Below are positions 3,049 to 51,284 of a stretch of 64,000 nucleotides of DNA, one piece after another. The stretch's first letter is position 1; each line of letters begins with the position of its first letter. This DNA is from Candidatus Bathyarchaeota archaeon. GTDB taxonomy: Archaea; Thermoproteota; Bathyarchaeia; Bathyarchaeales; Bathycorpusculaceae. The notes beneath the pieces are model-generated. The model worked only from the letters and a program-made list of their open reading frames with translations. It did no database searches and was not told the origin of the DNA. Where the stretch lies: contig JAOZHW010000005.1 in NCBI GenBank assembly GCA_026014685.1, forward strand, positions 310,001 to 374,000, given 5' to 3'. The position numbers and the translations under genes were made by a program.

Positions 3049-3225
3049 TTACTCGCAATGATGAGATTAGGTTAACTGATTAAGAATTAGGGTGCATTGC
3101 GTCTAATAATACTTGTGGTGTACCCGTCCAACGTACATTAAGCATCAAATCTGGCTGAGGCACGCTCAAAAGACCGTTTACCCTTTAACTTAAATAATTA
3201 TTCACACAAAGAGAAAGCGACAAAC

Positions 3226-4023
3226 ATGAGCCTTCACTTAAACCCCGAATACGACAAGCTCCTGCCCCGAATGTCAGAAGAAGAATTCGCTGAACTCAAA
3301 CGCTCCATTCAAACTGAAGGTCAACATTACCCCATAATCGTAAACGGAGACCTCGAAGTCCTAGACGGCCACCACCGCTTCCGCGCCTGCACAGAGTTGG
3401 GGATAGAACCCGATTTTGAAGTTAAACACTTTGAAGATAAACTGCTGGAGAAAAAGTTTGTTATAGAAGCCAACTTGCGGCGTAGGCACCTAAACAACTT
3501 TCAACTTGTAGAGTTAGCTGTTCCGCTGCTGGAGATAGAGAAAGCCCTTGCCAAGAAAAGACAGCAGAAGGGCGGCAAAAACGGACGCGATGCACAGTTG
3601 GGGTTAGCGTCACAAGACGCAGAGCCGCTGTTTGAACCTGAAATCAAGGCAAAAGCAACAGAAATTGTGGCGAAAAAAGCTGGTGTTTCCACGCGGACTC
3701 TGGAGCGGGGGAAAAAAATCATAGAGAAAGCCAGCGAAGATGAAAAACAAAAACTCCGCGAAGGCAAAACCAGCATCTCAAGGGTTTATCAGGAAATAGT
3801 GAACGAAGAAAAACCCAAACCACAAGAGCCGCCAGCGCCTAAAGTGGAGTCTGAACGTGACTTGCACAATAAGGCGGAGCTTTTGTCTATTCTGGAGCGC
3901 CTGCTAAGCGAGGAATTATTCTGCCCCTCCTGCGGTAACGCCATGTTTGAATGTAGCAAATGCCACAAAACCCTAAAAGAACTACTCAAGGCAGCCAAAA
4001 ATGAAAGCCATAATCAACCCTGA
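3226..4023 (+). CDS. ParB-like nuclease-domain protein with C-terminal zinc finger
   Basis: The N-terminal about 100 residues match the ParB/sulfiredoxin fold (PIIVNGDLEVLDGHHRFRA, with DGHHRF around residues 47-52). An HTH-like middle follows (VSTRTLERGKKII) and then a Pro-rich linker. The C-terminus carries CPSC (233-236) and CSKC (243-246), a probable zinc ribbon. ParB-fold proteins of this size in archaea are usually DNA-binding regulators or nucleases; no ParA partner is next to it, so a partition role is not supported. Its last 23 bases overlap the ferredoxin gene in another frame, suggesting translational coupling. A TATA-like CTTAAATAAT lies about 30-40 bases upstream of the ATG. Confidence 0.8.
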   Translation: MSLHLNPEYDKLLPRMSEEEFAELKRSIQTEGQHYPIIVNGDLEVLDGHHRFRACTELGIEPDFEVKHFEDKLLEKKFVIEANLRRRHLNNFQLVELAVPLLEIEKALAKKRQQKGGKNGRDAQLGLASQDAEPLFEPEIKAKATEIVAKKAGVSTRTLERGKKIIEKASEDEKQKLREGKTSISRVYQEIVNEEKPKPQEPPAPKVESERDLHNKAELLSILERLLSEELFCPSCGNAMFECSKCHKTLKELLKAAKNESHNQP

Positions 4024-42525: not shown

Positions 42526-45500
42526 TCATCCTTGCCAATTATAGTAGATGTTGACTGTGTTGCCCCAAACGAAGGTCCATACGTCAAATGGAATGCTGTA
42601 GCACCATTGTTCGCTACCTCCGCCCCAATTGGGAATATATGCATAGCTGAAGTAGTCAGTGCCCCAGCCCCATGGATCATTGATAGAGTAGTCAACGTAT
42701 TGAGACACTGGACCACCACCGTGCAAATCAGAGCCATGACAATAGTTGGGACCATCACGTTCTTCCCATGCGACACGGTATTCTGTCGAGTTAACTAACA
42801 TGTCACCACAGTAGTCATTGTGGGCATACACGTTAAATGTCACCGGATAGTAGTATGGAGCTGAATGTACGACAACGCTATGAGCGGACTGGATGGTGTT
42901 GAATGTTATTGAACCTGCATTTGCCGAACCGTATTCTGTTGGATTATGAGAAGCGCCATCAACGATTACTTCTGTGATGTAGCAATAGTAAGATCCATAA
43001 TCATCCGCACATTGCCATGAAACAACTGGACTTGTTCCACCATTCACCGTTTGCGACCCTGTAATGGCAACATCTGCCGTTGCACTCGTCGATACGGTGT
43101 ATGTATTGACTGCAAAGTAAGCTACCATGGAAACGTCCGCTGCGATGTTGAATTCTTCGTGTTGGTTGTAGTCATAGACTTGTTCATTTGCCAGCCAATA
43201 GGCGAAGTGATACCCTGCGGCTGGTGTTGCATCCATAGTTATGTGAGTGTTTGGTGCTACGTATCCATTTGCGGTGTTGCTTGAGACTGTTCCTTGGTTT
43301 GCATTTGAAGTGGTGCATGACCACGAGAACTGTTGAGTGAAGTACGCAGTGCATGTTATGTCGCTTGTTACAGTTACGTCACGTTGACTGTAGAGGTAGT
43401 AGTCGGTTCCTGCAATGTTCAATTTATTGAAAACGTATCCAGTATTTGGTGTTGCAACAATATGTACAGTTGTGCCTGTATCCACTACTTGTGTTCCTGG
43501 TGATGTGGTTCCGCCGGTGCCGTGGTTTATGGTTATGGTGTATTGTCTGATGAAGTATGCTGTTGCTGTTGTGTCACTGGTAATGGTTACATTTGTTGTA
43601 GCTGTTGTGTAGGAATTGCTTCCGGAGGCGTTAACGACTGTCCAATGATCAAATCGGTAACCGCTAGCAGGGGTTGCTGATAAGGTCACATTCGCTCCGT
43701 TATCGTACAGACCGGATGATGGTGACACTGAACCCTGACCGCTCCCAATGCCTGTCGTCAATGTACACTGGTTAGAGAAGCTTGCATAGAACGTCAAGTT
43801 GGAACCGATGTTGGTAGCAGAGTATTGATTGTTTGAAACACTGCCCATTACTGAGTTGCCATTGCATGTCAGGTCGGCGAGGTGGTAGCCGCTGTTTGGC
43901 TTCATCAAAACCATTGCAGTACTGCTCCCTGCAACTTCGAGGGTTCCGTTGGGAATTATTGTGCCACCTGAACTTGCAGAAGCCGATAGGCTATAAGTTG
44001 AAGCGGCGCCGGCTGTGTAGTGGGCTGTGAGATATGTTGTTGCTGTAGGTGTGTAGGTCATTGGATTGGTTGTTGAGGTGCCGATAAGTTGGTTGCTGCT
44101 GTTTCTGAGTTCCCAGTGGTCGAAGTGGCAGGTATAATCAGGAGGAGAACCAAAATAGGGATCCATTGAATTTACTGTGGCATAGAAGCTGTGCGGTTCA
44201 TTGGAGGTTACGCAGGCAGCTACGTTTCCAAGGTTAGTTACCGTATAGCCAGTTCCATCTACTGCGATTCCTATGCTGCTGGTGAGTGGTGTCATGAGGT
44301 GTATGGGGGAATGATCTGCCGCCCCAAGAGTAAATGTAGCGGTAATGGTACTGTCGCTATAAACAGCTGGGTATGTGTAGGTGTAGTGTTGGCCTCCGGC
44401 TTGTATATGGGTACCGCCAACGTTGATGTCAGAAATCACATAGCAATCATAGGCATCAACACTAAAGCTTGGAGTTGCCCCTTCATTAACGGTCACATAA
44501 TTGTAAGGATTAATAGAACCACCTTCACTAGAACTATCATAGATAGTATAGGTAGTGGTAGGGGGCGTGCCGCAAATGCTTTCAGTTCTATATGTACGGT
44601 AAACGTTGATTGCCGGATCTAGCATTATGACGTCATAATCGCTATTGTTTACTAGAACCACTTCGTTGTATCCGTCATCATCATAGGCTGGACAATTAAC
44701 TAGGTTGAAACTTGGTGCAAATCCGCCTTCTGGAATGCTACTTATGTGATAATCGGTGCAATGAGTGCCGTTAACCCATAGTTGAAGTTCAAGATCGGTT
44801 GTAGTGGGGTTTTGATTTGGAACGATAGCTATTTGGTTGAAATTGAAGAGACATGTTTCTGGTCCAACATAGTTATATTGACTAAATGATGTCCAATCGA
44901 TGTTCCATTGGAAGCAGCCGCCGTTTTTAGGTATTGTTTGATTGTGGAGCTCTGGGTTTTGGTAGAAACTATAGCTTCGTGAACCACAAAAGTATATTCC
45001 ACCTATTTCGTGTTCTTGAAGATTGCACGGGTAGTCCAGACGACCGAAGAAATCGCCAGAATTATCAGTATTACTTCCAGATTTGACAATATAACGAGGC
45101 TGAGTTGGGTCATTACAGGTATTAGTATCATTACAATATCCACTTGCATCACATTCAGTGCTACCCATCACGTAAACTCGTTGTATTTGGAAATTACTAA
45201 TAGTTACGCTATGAGTCTGACTTCTGTTGTATATTGAAAAAATGTTTCTCTCGTCGTCGTTGTATCTGCCAGTATTTGCAAGATCAATGCACTGCCAACC
45301 ACCATTTCCTGTCCCGCTAAGAAAACAGCTTCCGGGGGTTGTTAAATTTGGATCGTTTGTATAATAGTCGAGTCTAACTTGCTCTCCGTTCGGATTGTTT
45401 GCGTTTGCATTGAACAAAAGATTACATACATCCTGTTTTGTGTGGCATCGAGGAACAGTACAAGTGAATTGTATGTCTATATGATCTTGCGGCGGTATTA

Positions 45501-45681
45501 TGTAGGTTCTTCCGGAGTTCAACCCACAATATGGATATCCGCCCCAGTAAGTAACCCCCCGTCCATCAATGTATCTGTATGGATTATTTGGGTTTCTATC
45601 ACATGCATAGTTAGTTTTTTTGAAGTTTACAGGGTCAAATTGAAAAGCACTTGCATCAGTGCTTACTTTAGTACAGGTCAT
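42526..45681 (-). CDS. Large Cys-rich protein with InlB-type B-repeats, no signal peptide (cassette A)
   Basis: The 1051-residue protein starts at the ATG with RBS AGGAGAT (45681); the upstream frame extension to 45774 has no support. The first about 420 residues are Cys-rich and lack a family assignment. The rest is a chain of about 70-residue beta units (for example GGTTSPGTQVVDTGTTV, SGYRFDHWTVVN and TSDTTATAYFIRQY), which resemble the divergent InlB B-repeat/bacterial repeat domain of surface adhesins. No signal peptide, TM helix or anchor is present, odd for such a protein. It occupies the position held by the fibre protein in the second cassette. Confidence 0.82.
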   Translation of the reverse strand: MTCTKVSTDASAFQFDPVNFKKTNYACDRNPNNPYRYIDGRGVTYWGGYPYCGLNSGRTYIIPPQDHIDIQFTCTVPRCHTKQDVCNLLFNANANNPNGEQVRLDYYTNDPNLTTPGSCFLSGTGNGGWQCIDLANTGRYNDDERNIFSIYNRSQTHSVTISNFQIQRVYVMGSTECDASGYCNDTNTCNDPTQPRYIVKSGSNTDNSGDFFGRLDYPCNLQEHEIGGIYFCGSRSYSFYQNPELHNQTIPKNGGCFQWNIDWTSFSQYNYVGPETCLFNFNQIAIVPNQNPTTTDLELQLWVNGTHCTDYHISSIPEGGFAPSFNLVNCPAYDDDGYNEVVLVNNSDYDVIMLDPAINVYRTYRTESICGTPPTTTYTIYDSSSEGGSINPYNYVTVNEGATPSFSVDAYDCYVISDINVGGTHIQAGGQHYTYTYPAVYSDSTITATFTLGAADHSPIHLMTPLTSSIGIAVDGTGYTVTNLGNVAACVTSNEPHSFYATVNSMDPYFGSPPDYTCHFDHWELRNSSNQLIGTSTTNPMTYTPTATTYLTAHYTAGAASTYSLSASASSGGTIIPNGTLEVAGSSTAMVLMKPNSGYHLADLTCNGNSVMGSVSNNQYSATNIGSNLTFYASFSNQCTLTTGIGSGQGSVSPSSGLYDNGANVTLSATPASGYRFDHWTVVNASGSNSYTTATTNVTITSDTTATAYFIRQYTITINHGTGGTTSPGTQVVDTGTTVHIVATPNTGYVFNKLNIAGTDYYLYSQRDVTVTSDITCTAYFTQQFSWSCTTSNANQGTVSSNTANGYVAPNTHITMDATPAAGYHFAYWLANEQVYDYNQHEEFNIAADVSMVAYFAVNTYTVSTSATADVAITGSQTVNGGTSPVVSWQCADDYGSYYCYITEVIVDGASHNPTEYGSANAGSITFNTIQSAHSVVVHSAPYYYPVTFNVYAHNDYCGDMLVNSTEYRVAWEERDGPNYCHGSDLHGGGPVSQYVDYSINDPWGWGTDYFSYAYIPNWGGGSEQWCYSIPFDVWTFVWGNTVNIYYNWQG

Positions 45682-45698
45682 TTTTTTTATCTCCTGAT

Positions 45699-45715
45699 AG
45701 AGATTAGTGATCTCT
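45699..45715. promoter_or_regulatory. Hairpin in the leader of the large repeat protein gene
   Basis: AGAGAT and ATCTCT pair around five bases, 18-34 bases upstream of the start at 45681 and next to the ribosome-binding site; it could influence translation. Confidence 0.35.
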
Positions 45716-45810
45716 GGGTATAAGGCAGGCGAGATATTTCTGAAATACCGGAAAAGCTTGAGTATCAGGAACAATATAATGGTGATTGCTCTAAAGAGAA
45801 GGGGGTTAAA

Positions 45811-48153: not shown

Positions 48154-49233
48154 TTAGAATTTGAATTTGATTGGGCCGAGGTGCTTCTCGTTTTTGCGCA
48201 GGAATGCACTTTCTACGCCTGTGACGACCGCCATGACTGAAACTGCGCCTTTTAGTTCTTTGTCAACTCTTGCGCCCCAGATGATCTTTACGTTGGGTGG
48301 CAAGCTGCGTTTCATGATTTCAGCTGCGCGGTTAACTTCGCTTAAGGTCAAATCTTCACCACCAGATACGTGGATCAGTAAGCCTTGAGCTTTAGTTACG
48401 TCTTCAATGTCTAAGAGGCGTCCGTTAAGTGCTTTTTCTACTGCAGTTTCAACACGTGTCTCGCCTGTGCCTTCGCCGATGCCGATGGATGCTAAACCTG
48501 AGCCAGTCATGATTGCTTTGAGGTCTGCGTAGTCGAGGTTGATGAGGCTTGCTGTGGTGATGGTTTCAGTTACTCCTTTAACGAATTTACCGACGGTGGT
48601 GTTTGCTACACCGAGGGCTTCACGGAAAGGCAAGTTACCTGCAACTTTAACTAGCCTGTTGTTGTCGATTACGACTACGGAGTCACATGAGGCTTTCAAA
48701 CGGTTTAAGCCACGTTTGGCAGAGGCCATTCTGGCGGTTTCAACTTCGAACGGAAGAGTAACTACACCTACGATCAAGGGCGCCATGGGGTTGCCTGCGA
48801 ATTTTTTGCGTAAAACATCTGCTAAGCCGACGATGGAGCCTGTACCGGTACCACCACCTAAGCCAGCGACCATGAAGATGATGTTTGACTTTGACAATTC
48901 GTAGACGACTTCGTTGGCGTTTTCGTAGAGTGCTTTCTCACCGACTTCAGCGTATCCACCGCTTCCTAGACCGCGGGTGAGTTTTTCACCGATGAGGATT
49001 CTTTTGTCTGCTTTGGTTATCATGAGGTGTGTAGCGTCAGTGTTGACTGCGATGAGTTTTCCGCCGGTGATTCCTTTTTCTTTTGCCCAGCTAATGACGT
49101 TGCATCCGGCACCACCTAAACCGACAGCGACAACTGTTGGTGCAGCCATCCTTGCGTATTTCATGATTTTTTCTTCTTGTGTTTCCCTATAGGGAGTTTC
49201 TTCGAATTGAGTTTCTTCTTGTGGTTGTTCCAT
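48154..49233 (-). CDS. ftsZ: Cell division GTPase FtsZ
   Basis: The tubulin-family GTPase has the signature GGGTGTG at 126-132 and an intact T7 catalytic loop (N231, D233 and D236 in NLDYADLKAIM), so it should polymerise and hydrolyse GTP. The N-terminal about 25 residues are Glu/Gln-rich and the C-terminus ends GPIKFKF. The 359-residue length is normal for archaeal FtsZ. It lies 6.6 kb from the Cdv genes, so both division systems are present in this segment. A palindrome lies in its promoter region. Confidence 0.96.
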   Translation of the reverse strand: MEQPQEETQFEETPYRETQEEKIMKYARMAAPTVVAVGLGGAGCNVISWAKEKGITGGKLIAVNTDATHLMITKADKRILIGEKLTRGLGSGGYAEVGEKALYENANEVVYELSKSNIIFMVAGLGGGTGTGSIVGLADVLRKKFAGNPMAPLIVGVVTLPFEVETARMASAKRGLNRLKASCDSVVVIDNNRLVKVAGNLPFREALGVANTTVGKFVKGVTETITTASLINLDYADLKAIMTGSGLASIGIGEGTGETRVETAVEKALNGRLLDIEDVTKAQGLLIHVSGGEDLTLSEVNRAAEIMKRSLPPNVKIIWGARVDKELKGAVSVMAVVTGVESAFLRKNEKHLGPIKFKF

Positions 49234-49898: not shown

Positions 49899-49957
49899 AC
49901 CGCTGCTGCTCTCAAGAGACCCCCCTCCCTTAGGGGTAGGGAACTGCGCACAGGGCA

Positions 49958-50500
49958 TTATGCATTCTGGATGGTTCTTAGAATCGTCAGCACCTGTGCA
50001 TCCTGTGCTCTTTTGGTTAGGTAACTTAGATCTAGTTTGCCTTCCTGCCTCACCAAAACGCTCTTTAAATCCTGCTCATCGATAACGCCCCGGTCTGGTC
50101 TAGCCAGTTTGGTAACAATAAAGTCTTCAGGTGAAACAACCCACGCCGAAAAATCCTCGCTCAGCTGCATCCTATTGCGCCGAGTTAACGTTTCTTGGTC
50201 AAAAACGATGCCGTCGGGTCTACTCCATAATTCGAACTCCATTCCTTCTTTGTGGTCAACGATGACAGTTAACGGGTTGTTTGGAGAGCAAATTGTAGGT
50301 TCAAAGTCGGCTGCTCTGAGTAGATTTAGCAGAGCATTGTAGGCGTCTTTTGTTTTGACGGCAACGGCAAGGTCCAAATCCACGGTGGTTCGGATTCTGC
50401 CATAGAAAGGCAAAGCGTAGCCGCCTATGATCATATAGTCGATTCGGTTTTTCTCAAAGAGTGCTACTAGTCTTTGAAGACTTCTCAATATTGCTGGCAA
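49958..50500 (-). CDS. Nucleotidyltransferase-fold protein (AbiEii/MNT-like)
   Basis: The 180-residue protein has the minimal nucleotidyltransferase signature: G26-G27 in MIIGGYALPFYGR and D41, D43 in TTVDLDLAV. Such proteins act as toxins or antitoxins in several two-gene systems (AbiE type, HEPN/MNT type). The gene begins 47 bases inside the upstream winged-helix gene, typical of coupled toxin-antitoxin pairs. Confidence 0.8.
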   Translation of the reverse strand: MPAILRSLQRLVALFEKNRIDYMIIGGYALPFYGRIRTTVDLDLAVAVKTKDAYNALLNLLRAADFEPTICSPNNPLTVIVDHKEGMEFELWSRPDGIVFDQETLTRRNRMQLSEDFSAWVVSPEDFIVTKLARPDRGVIDEQDLKSVLVRQEGKLDLSYLTKRAQDAQVLTILRTIQNA

Positions 50501-50864
50501 TTGTGTTTAACTCCATGAAGACTTGAAAAGTTGAGTGCCCCCTCTCAGCAATTCTTTTGGCGTAGAGGGCGTCTTTTGTAGCGCGCTCTAAGTCTACTTT
50601 GCGGGCTTTGAGGCGTTTAAGGTTTAATTTTTTGTATGCTTCGTAGAATTCAATGCCTAGTGGAGTGACGTTTATGTGTTTTTTTGGGCGACCTCTTTTT
50701 GTGCCTTTAACTTCCGTTATTTTGATGAGGCCTTCGTCTTCCATTCGTCTTAGCAGTGATATGGTGTTGGCGTTTTTCAGTTTGAGCGTTTGGATGAGTT
50801 CTCTGATGCCACAGTCGTTTGATTGGGTGGTGTGGATAATTTTTGCGCGTTGTTCTAAAGACAT
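50454..50864 (-). CDS. Winged-helix regulator paired with the nucleotidyltransferase
   Basis: The 136-residue protein has a winged helix in residues 1-75 (LLRRMEDEGLIKITEVKGTK, then GRPKKHINVTPLG) and a basic helical C-terminal half. It is the first gene of the pair. An inverted repeat covers its ribosome-binding region, consistent with autoregulation as in AbiEi-type antitoxins, although overall AbiEi homology is not evident. Confidence 0.78.
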   Translation of the reverse strand: MSLEQRAKIIHTTQSNDCGIRELIQTLKLKNANTISLLRRMEDEGLIKITEVKGTKRGRPKKHINVTPLGIEFYEAYKKLNLKRLKARKVDLERATKDALYAKRIAERGHSTFQVFMELNTIASNIEKSSKTSSTL

Positions 50865-50867
50865 TTT

Positions 50868-50884
50868 GTTTCCCTAAAGGAAAC
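50868..50884. promoter_or_regulatory. Operator-like inverted repeat of the winged-helix/nucleotidyltransferase pair
   Basis: GTTTCC and GGAAAC are perfect arms around CTAAA, beginning four bases before the start codon at 50864. Binding or folding here would block translation or transcription start. Confidence 0.5.
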
Positions 50885-51284
50885 ATTATCGCTGCATTAT
50901 TTAGGTTTTCTGTTTTACTTGCGGCGCTCCATGTTTTTCTTTGTTGAGAACCACACGACCGCTCACCGAAGAAGCCCTCCCATACATAGAAACTAAAACC
51001 CCATCATTTCAATGCAGCCGAGCTTCAAAGCATCCGAGCACATCGCAACCACGCTTGGAGGTCTGCTCCATAAATCAGGCCCAGTCGTCAAGCGGGGGTG
51101 GGTTCATGCGTTACCGCTATATTAAATCTTCTTAAGCTCGTCTTTTAAACAGCCACCTTTTTTCTGGTTGTTTTGGGTGTGTTTTTGGGAAAGTTTAATA
51201 TGGTTTAGAGTCGAAGTTTGGTTATAATGGCAAGTTCAACCTACAGTTACCCCAAACTTGCCTAAACCCCAAGGAAGTGAGCAG
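50885..51284. other. 400-base gap with one possible promoter
   Basis: GGTTATAATGG near 51220 is a reasonable TATA box for the 51285 gene. A 64-codon open frame at 50941-51135 lacks a ribosome-binding site and family resemblance, so I do not call it. Confidence 0.4.

Follow-up and report, generated by a model that had tools for sequence, protein, structure and literature searches.

Two overlapping genes preceded by an inverted repeat

The window, that is, the whole stretch of 64,000 nucleotides of Candidatus Bathyarchaeota DNA that we analysed, carries on its reverse strand two overlapping genes, the first encoding a winged-helix protein and the second a nucleotidyltransferase (Table 1). A sequence-only reading of this DNA had reported a 47-base gene overlap, a GG..D.D enzyme motif and a perfect inverted repeat right before the first start codon, and all three are present: the ORFs lie as given in Table 1, the motif residues are G26, G27, D41 and D43 of the enzyme, and the full repeat (TGTTTCC-N5-GGAAACA, 7+7 bp with a 5-base loop, spanning 50867-50885), which is conserved in relatives, leaves 3 bases between its 17-bp core and the start codon at 50862-50864. 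The repeat was found by eye and by script, and is not among the longest 25 of the 52 inverted pairs. Judging from the position of the TATA-like element, transcription would start near or within the palindrome.

Table 1. Features of the two-gene locus (positions in the window).
Feature	Position	Strand	Basis
Winged-helix protein gene, 136 aa, ATG start; putative antitoxin and autorepressor	50454..50864	-	ORF list, AF2 model, fold search
MenT1-like nucleotidyltransferase gene, 180 aa, TTG start; putative toxin	49958..50500	-	ORF list, Pfam, PDB profile, fold match
Overlap of the two genes, 47 bases	50454..50500	-	ORF list; kept in relatives
GGAG, Shine-Dalgarno-like, 10 bases 5' of the enzyme TTG, within the first gene	50511..50514	-	relatives
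Palindromic core GTTTCC-N5-GGAAAC, putative operator	50868..50884	.	conservation in relatives
TATA-like CTAAATAAT	50896..50904	-	read from sequence
Stretch with the pair, missing next to the matching neighbours in G018, the closest relative	49930..51180	.	genome matches

In all 19 loci scored for coupling, the two genes overlap, by 17-50 bases; the enzyme gene starts with TTG in 16 of these loci and with ATG in 3, where the start codons were chosen by us and L051, L061, L063 and L066 were left unscored (in L051, the start codon could not be assigned with certainty). GGAG lies 5' of the enzyme start in 13 of the 19 loci, a conservation owed in part to a conserved peptide, (M/L)-E-L-N. Adjoining the pair in the window is a gene for a 359-aa protein (48154-49233, reverse strand) with glycine stretches that we take to be FtsZ/tubulin-like; a 1082-aa ORF on the same strand (42526-45774) contains repeated GG.. 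stretches, and we assume that it perhaps encodes a surface protein.

The first gene encodes a MarR/PadR-like winged-helix protein

The 136-aa protein of the window has Pfam matches to PadR, HTH_34 and MarR, all of them sub-threshold. Among 18 members of the partner family, searched at E 0.05, 11 match MarR_2 (best 1.2e-8) and two match HVO_A0261_N (best 2.8e-10); the 22 Pfam families matched by these members include no AbiEi family. The best match in a PDB profile search is the heat shock regulator of Pyrococcus furiosus (2p4w, E 1.7e-9, positions 4-66), followed by many MarR, PadR and ArsR proteins. The AF2 model (pLDDT 80.9) consists of a winged helix followed by helices at 89-107 and 112-134, and its nearest folds among the best 50 matches are MarR/PadR repressors (Z 11.6-13.0). 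Residues 58-60 form a GRP motif that does not vary among 16 members and is conserved at 90% or more in 18. No similarity of the partner to a known antitoxin is detectable, and its PADLOC matches to CARF/Csa3 are weak and partial and were ascribed to a general resemblance of fold.

The second gene encodes a MenT1-like nucleotidyltransferase

The enzyme passes the Pfam cut-offs of DUF6036 (30.2 bits vs. 23.6) and DUF2204 (28.8 bits vs. 20.3); an NCBIfam search gave nothing above cut-off. With a profile of 16 relatives, the top PDB match is MenT1 of M. tuberculosis (8an4, E 3.4e-8), and the runner-up has an E of 0.026. MenT1 is also the best match of the AF2 model of the enzyme (pLDDT 93.9) in Foldseek (E 1.7e-9) and in the fold comparison, where 176 residues align with an rmsd of 2.3 and a Z of 20.7; the unrelated entry that comes next reaches Z 13.0. 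Weaker fold matches include ANT(2'') (Z 13.0), LnuA (Z 12.0) and, in Foldseek, CCA-adding enzymes. The AbiEi antitoxin structure 6y8q matches the enzyme model over its residues 54-193 (Z 12.5), which may reflect a shared nucleotidyltransferase-like fold, so that this later part of AbiEi may be nucleotidyltransferase-like as well.

Residues T39, D41, K137 and D152 of MenT1, the residues tested in PMC11375011 (partial text), align in the profile alignment with T39, D41, K131 and D144 of the archaeal enzyme, a mapping that assumes a shift by one, inferred from the letters, between the chain index and the numbering of that paper. This active-site set is nearly constant in the 16 aligned members: T or S at position 39 in 16/16, D41 in 15/16, K131 in 16/16 and D144 in 16/16. 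The exception (L056, the same locus as L035) carries A instead of D41 and S instead of T39; its two reading frames are nevertheless open and its operator is exact, and its enzyme is perhaps inactive. In the enzyme of L060, residues 27 and 90 are altered.

The locus might instead be an operon in which a MarR/PadR-type repressor controls a nucleotidyltransferase whose substrate and inducer would be a small molecule, e.g., an antibiotic. Such an arrangement would fit the MarR/PadR-like fold of the partner, the fold that the enzyme has in common with ANT(2'') and LnuA, and a sub-threshold match of the enzyme to Aminoglyc_resit (E 0.085; 5 of the 16 members match at E 0.01). However, MenT1 outscores the resistance enzymes by a wide margin (Z 20.7 vs. 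13.0), the active-site set is that of MenT1, and a strict pairing, overlapping genes and decayed fragments would sooner be expected of toxin-antitoxin loci, so that we consider a regulated resistance-type enzyme unlikely.

The palindrome is conserved upstream of related gene pairs

To the window we added 16 loci of the search of 256 class genomes and six further loci from a contig scan (both described below), with duplicates removed by coordinate comparison, giving 23 distinct loci, which are related and hence not independent trials. Counted with a fixed loop length, GTTTCC-N5-GGAAAC is exact in 9 loci and present with at most one mismatch in 14, at most two in 15 and at most three in 17; shuffled upstream regions gave frequencies per locus of 0.003 for at most two mismatches and 0.026 for at most three. 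Perfect palindromes with arms of at least 6 bases occur in 16 of the 23 loci, where chance would give 0.13 per locus. Where there are at most two mismatches (15 loci), the palindrome lies 19-21 bases before the start codon and the loop sequence is variable, except that its last base is G in all 15. The information per column in these loci is 1.85 bits in the arms, a value inflated by selecting loci on the arm match, 0.84 in the loop and 0.43 in the upstream 30 bases. Both arms are changed together in L028 and L058; the former was scored as a miss owing to an upstream ATG, and its next start reveals TATTTCC-N5-GGAAATA. Other palindromes are found in L034, L036 and L066, and L025 and L061 have three mismatches; within the 23-locus set, nothing similar was found in L060 and L051. 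The conservation in relatives, together with the kept overlap, indicates that the palindrome is not a chance occurrence. The 17-bp core occurs once in the 2.3 Mb genome of the window, as does a reversed control pattern, so that the single occurrence is no evidence against chance and argues only against a genome-wide regulon.

The centres of the half-sites are 11 bp apart, i.e., one DNA turn, a spacing that would fit a dimeric winged-helix repressor, and the partner probably uses this conserved site 5' of both genes to control both. Could the palindrome rather be an RNA hairpin that controls translation? Its position is at or downstream of the probable start of transcription, and in the predicted RNA, of 72 nt, it takes part in a fold of -11.9 kcal/mol (z -1.83), with 10 of 200 shuffles doing as well. 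Against this, the arm sequence itself is kept, beyond mere pairing. Further, when the loop was left free (3-9 bases), the best palindrome still had a 5-base loop in 15 of the 23 loci (that of L051 being unrelated), the half-sites are one DNA turn apart, and the partner is a winged-helix protein. We therefore hold a hairpin to be improbable and treat the palindrome as a putative DNA operator.

The two genes are strictly paired in the close subfamily

The close subfamily of the enzyme was found in 17 of the 256 class genomes, at full length in 15 and cut by contig ends in two (G005 and G110), and an overlapping winged-helix ORF lies upstream of the enzyme in all 17 loci. Conversely, a partner-profile search of the same 256 genomes (E 1e-10) recovered the same 17 genomes, although at most 16 candidates were scored per genome, so that a weak lone partner could be missed. 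A scan of genome contigs with the single enzyme protein returned 76 stretches and no relative; with an alignment as query, it returned 34 loci, in which the partner profile matches upstream of the enzyme in 20/20 archaeal and 0/14 bacterial loci. Most of these archaeal loci coincide with loci of the 256-genome search; L061 has a weak match to the partner profile (8.9e-6), and L066 shows decay and no overlap. The protein distances of the two genes are correlated across 16 loci (r = 0.92, reached in 0 of 5000 permutations), which in part reflects common descent.

The sequence-only reading had named homologues without the winged-helix partner as the result that would count against a two-gene unit. 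Beyond the 17 loci, two class genomes (G041 and G165) hold enzyme fragments only, and the partner is absent from all 8 stand-alone archaeal relatives examined, at ~30% identity. The association of the two genes is strict in the close subfamily, decayed fragments excepted.

Distribution, possible mobility and decay

In a phylum-wide sample searched at E <= 1e-30, the enzyme was found in 2 of 398 genomes, including that of the window. The records of relatives are mostly titled Candidatus Bathyarchaeota, including that of L062, a locus from the same genus as the window, and otherwise Hadesarchaea, Asgard group, Nitrososphaerales or Nitrososphaeria, and most carriers are metagenome assemblies. In a genome of the same genus without the pair (G007), the matched parts of the flanking genes are ~220 bases apart, vs. 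1.4 kb in the window. The closest relative is G018, whose matches end at 49929 and restart at 51181, on two separate contigs. Comparison of the flanks of 23 loci shows clearly shared genes in two pairs of loci only, namely L052/L064 (same genus, 87-98% identity) and L050/L056 (up to 72%), and weak protein matches (22-41%) in three further pairs.

Fragments of the enzyme, at 66% and 62%, occur in G041, and in G106 a fragment follows the intact pair by ~1.2 kb (L026, near 3198-3369). C-terminal fragments are seen in L003 and L016 (G041), L009 (G058), L044 (G165) and L026 (G106); several of them are disrupted by stop codons or by a break of the reading frame, and they suggest repeated gain and decay. 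The patchy occurrence, the G007 site without the pair and the decayed fragments fit a toxin-antitoxin module.

No relatives were found in phage records or in a pattern scan of viral contigs. Two plasmid records match, at 28.6%; in the one inspected, the nucleotidyltransferase gene adjoins a recombinase gene, IS6 transposase genes lie to either side, and no partner is listed. The scan for tRNA genes found none in the window and some in 4 of 22 pair-carrying loci (L047, L048, L053 and L025). In three of these, a tRNA gene of the same strand ends ~150-260 bases ahead of the pair (L048 3356-3441, L053 3293-3369, L025 907-981). The ORFs next to the pair in L060 resemble, as we take it, other toxin-antitoxin genes.

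Judged by eye, the neighbours of the pair are mostly ordinary-looking chromosomal genes, and this, like the presence of CCA-adding enzymes among the weaker fold matches, would fit a domesticated, autoregulated enzyme that modifies RNA ends in a housekeeping or stress role without toxicity. A patchy occurrence in 17 of 256 class genomes and 2 of 398 genomes across the phylum, as well as the decayed fragments, argues against such a role, to which we assign little probability.

A candidate toxin-antitoxin module

Taken together, the strict pairing, the overlap, the antitoxin-first order, the palindrome, the MenT1-like active site and a distribution marked by patchiness and decay speak for a toxin-antitoxin module. 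Our preferred reading, with a probability of about 0.65, is a MenT1-like toxin-antitoxin module of the nucleotidyltransferase (MenT) kind that regulates itself and has a MarR/PadR-like partner unlike MenA1. Of the earlier proposal of a toxin-antitoxin or phage-defence unit, a toxin-antitoxin type with its own operator is the reading that the sequences support best.

We infer that the enzyme is toxic and, by analogy with MenT1, most likely adds nucleotides to tRNA 3' ends, so that translation stops. A dimer of the winged-helix protein would repress the operon by binding the palindrome that precedes the start codon of its gene, and the two C-terminal helices of the partner might, as a guess, hold the enzyme inactive; neutralisation could possibly proceed via provoked phosphorylation of the active-site Thr39, as by MenA1 on MenT1. 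Given the overlap, the antitoxin-first order and the weak TTG after the internal GGAG, toxin synthesis would be coupled to, and remain below, antitoxin synthesis.

The HEPN/MNT part of the sequence-only reading is not borne out: the partner has the fold of a winged-helix protein, and no HEPN family is found among the Pfam matches of the pair or of the partner members. The reversal of roles seen in HEPN/MNT systems, with the enzyme as an antitoxin that modifies a toxic winged-helix protein, has a precedent in MntA antitoxins, which adenylylate their partner toxin (PMC7641770, partial text), but is very improbable here given the DNA-binding fold of the partner and the position of the enzyme gene, which is second, whereas MNT genes almost always come first (PMC3710099, partial text).

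A broader proposal goes beyond the toxin-antitoxin module itself, and we rate it tentatively, at somewhat below even odds: the partner would represent a further class of antitoxin for tRNA-modifying nucleotidyltransferase toxins, a small MarR/PadR-like repressor whose two C-terminal helices inactivate a MenT1-like enzyme (perhaps by inducing phosphorylation of the conserved Thr39) and which shuts its own operon via one palindrome at the start codon, the archaeal module having been passed among Bathyarchaeota, Hadesarchaea, Asgard archaea and Nitrososphaeria. If true, attack of the MenT kind, most likely by extension of tRNA ends, would reach a large archaeal group, known here chiefly through metagenome assemblies, in which the antitoxin is of another kind. 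The pair would also provide a compact check on the convergence of unrelated antitoxins on one active-site residue, as has been proposed for MenA1 and MenA3 (PMC11375011, partial text), and a testable function for part of DUF6036 and DUF2204, both described in Pfam as of unknown function.

Comparison with known systems

A literature search, mostly of papers open without subscription, yielded no description of this winged-helix/MenT1-like pair. The closest domain families offer different arrangements. Archaeal DUF6036/DUF2204 relatives at ~30% identity are stand-alone in all 8 cases examined. These eight loci (L004-L008, L010, L011 and L017) form a second archaeal DUF6036-like subfamily, and six of the eight have common neighbours as judged by eye. 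Of the bacterial relatives inspected, 9/10 come after a different small ORF. These DUF6036-like genes (L067-L070, L072-L075 and L078) usually overlap the small ORF, which is ~72-151 aa long by mechanical starts, and the combination is possibly another toxin-antitoxin pair; a search among PDB sequences with one such bacterial small ORF showed no likeness to MenA1. PygAT of Pyrococcus yayanosii is likewise an archaeal toxin-antitoxin pair with a nucleotidyltransferase toxin; PygT, in contrast, is assigned to DUF2253 (PMC11375011, partial text).

The proposed relation to AbiE holds at the superfamily level only: the enzyme reaches 14.7 bits with AbiEii vs. a cut-off of 22.5, its best match is MenT1, and the partner has neither an AbiEi match in Pfam nor a large C-terminal domain. 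The match between the enzyme model and the AbiEi structure 6y8q points the other way. PADLOC matches of the enzyme to PDC-M21B (9.2e-5, over residues 35-68) and AbiEii (0.001) are weak and partial, and were taken as general fold similarity.

The toxin most similar to the enzyme is that of MenAT1 (Rv0078B/Rv0078A) of Mycobacterium tuberculosis, with which the archaeal unit shares a nucleotidyltransferase of similar size, a fold match at Z 20.7, the four residues T39/D41/K137/D152 and a partner gene upstream. The partners differ: MenA1 has 68 aa and, in the partial text of PMC10435456, no evident DNA-binding domain, whereas the archaeal partner is a 136-aa winged-helix protein and hence not a short antitoxin of the MenA1 type. 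Regulation would differ as well, in that MenAT1 showed no autoregulation in a reporter test (PMC11375011, partial text), whereas the archaeal pair has a conserved palindrome. In gene order the archaeal unit resembles AbiE and MenAT3/MenAT4, in which a wHTH antitoxin likewise comes first and a nucleotidyltransferase toxin second; there the antitoxin binds inverted repeats in the promoter (PMC3985639 and PMC7319586, partial texts), a role that the conserved palindrome may have in the archaeal unit. However, AbiEi has a C-terminal antitoxin domain and paired 23-bp repeats, in contrast to the two helices after the winged helix and the single 17-bp palindrome of the archaeal unit, and MenT3 and MenT4 are chains of ~290 residues that match the enzyme model at Z 9.5-11.6. 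The module would thus combine a MenAT-like action with an AbiE-style autoregulation and, by its partner, be a member of neither.
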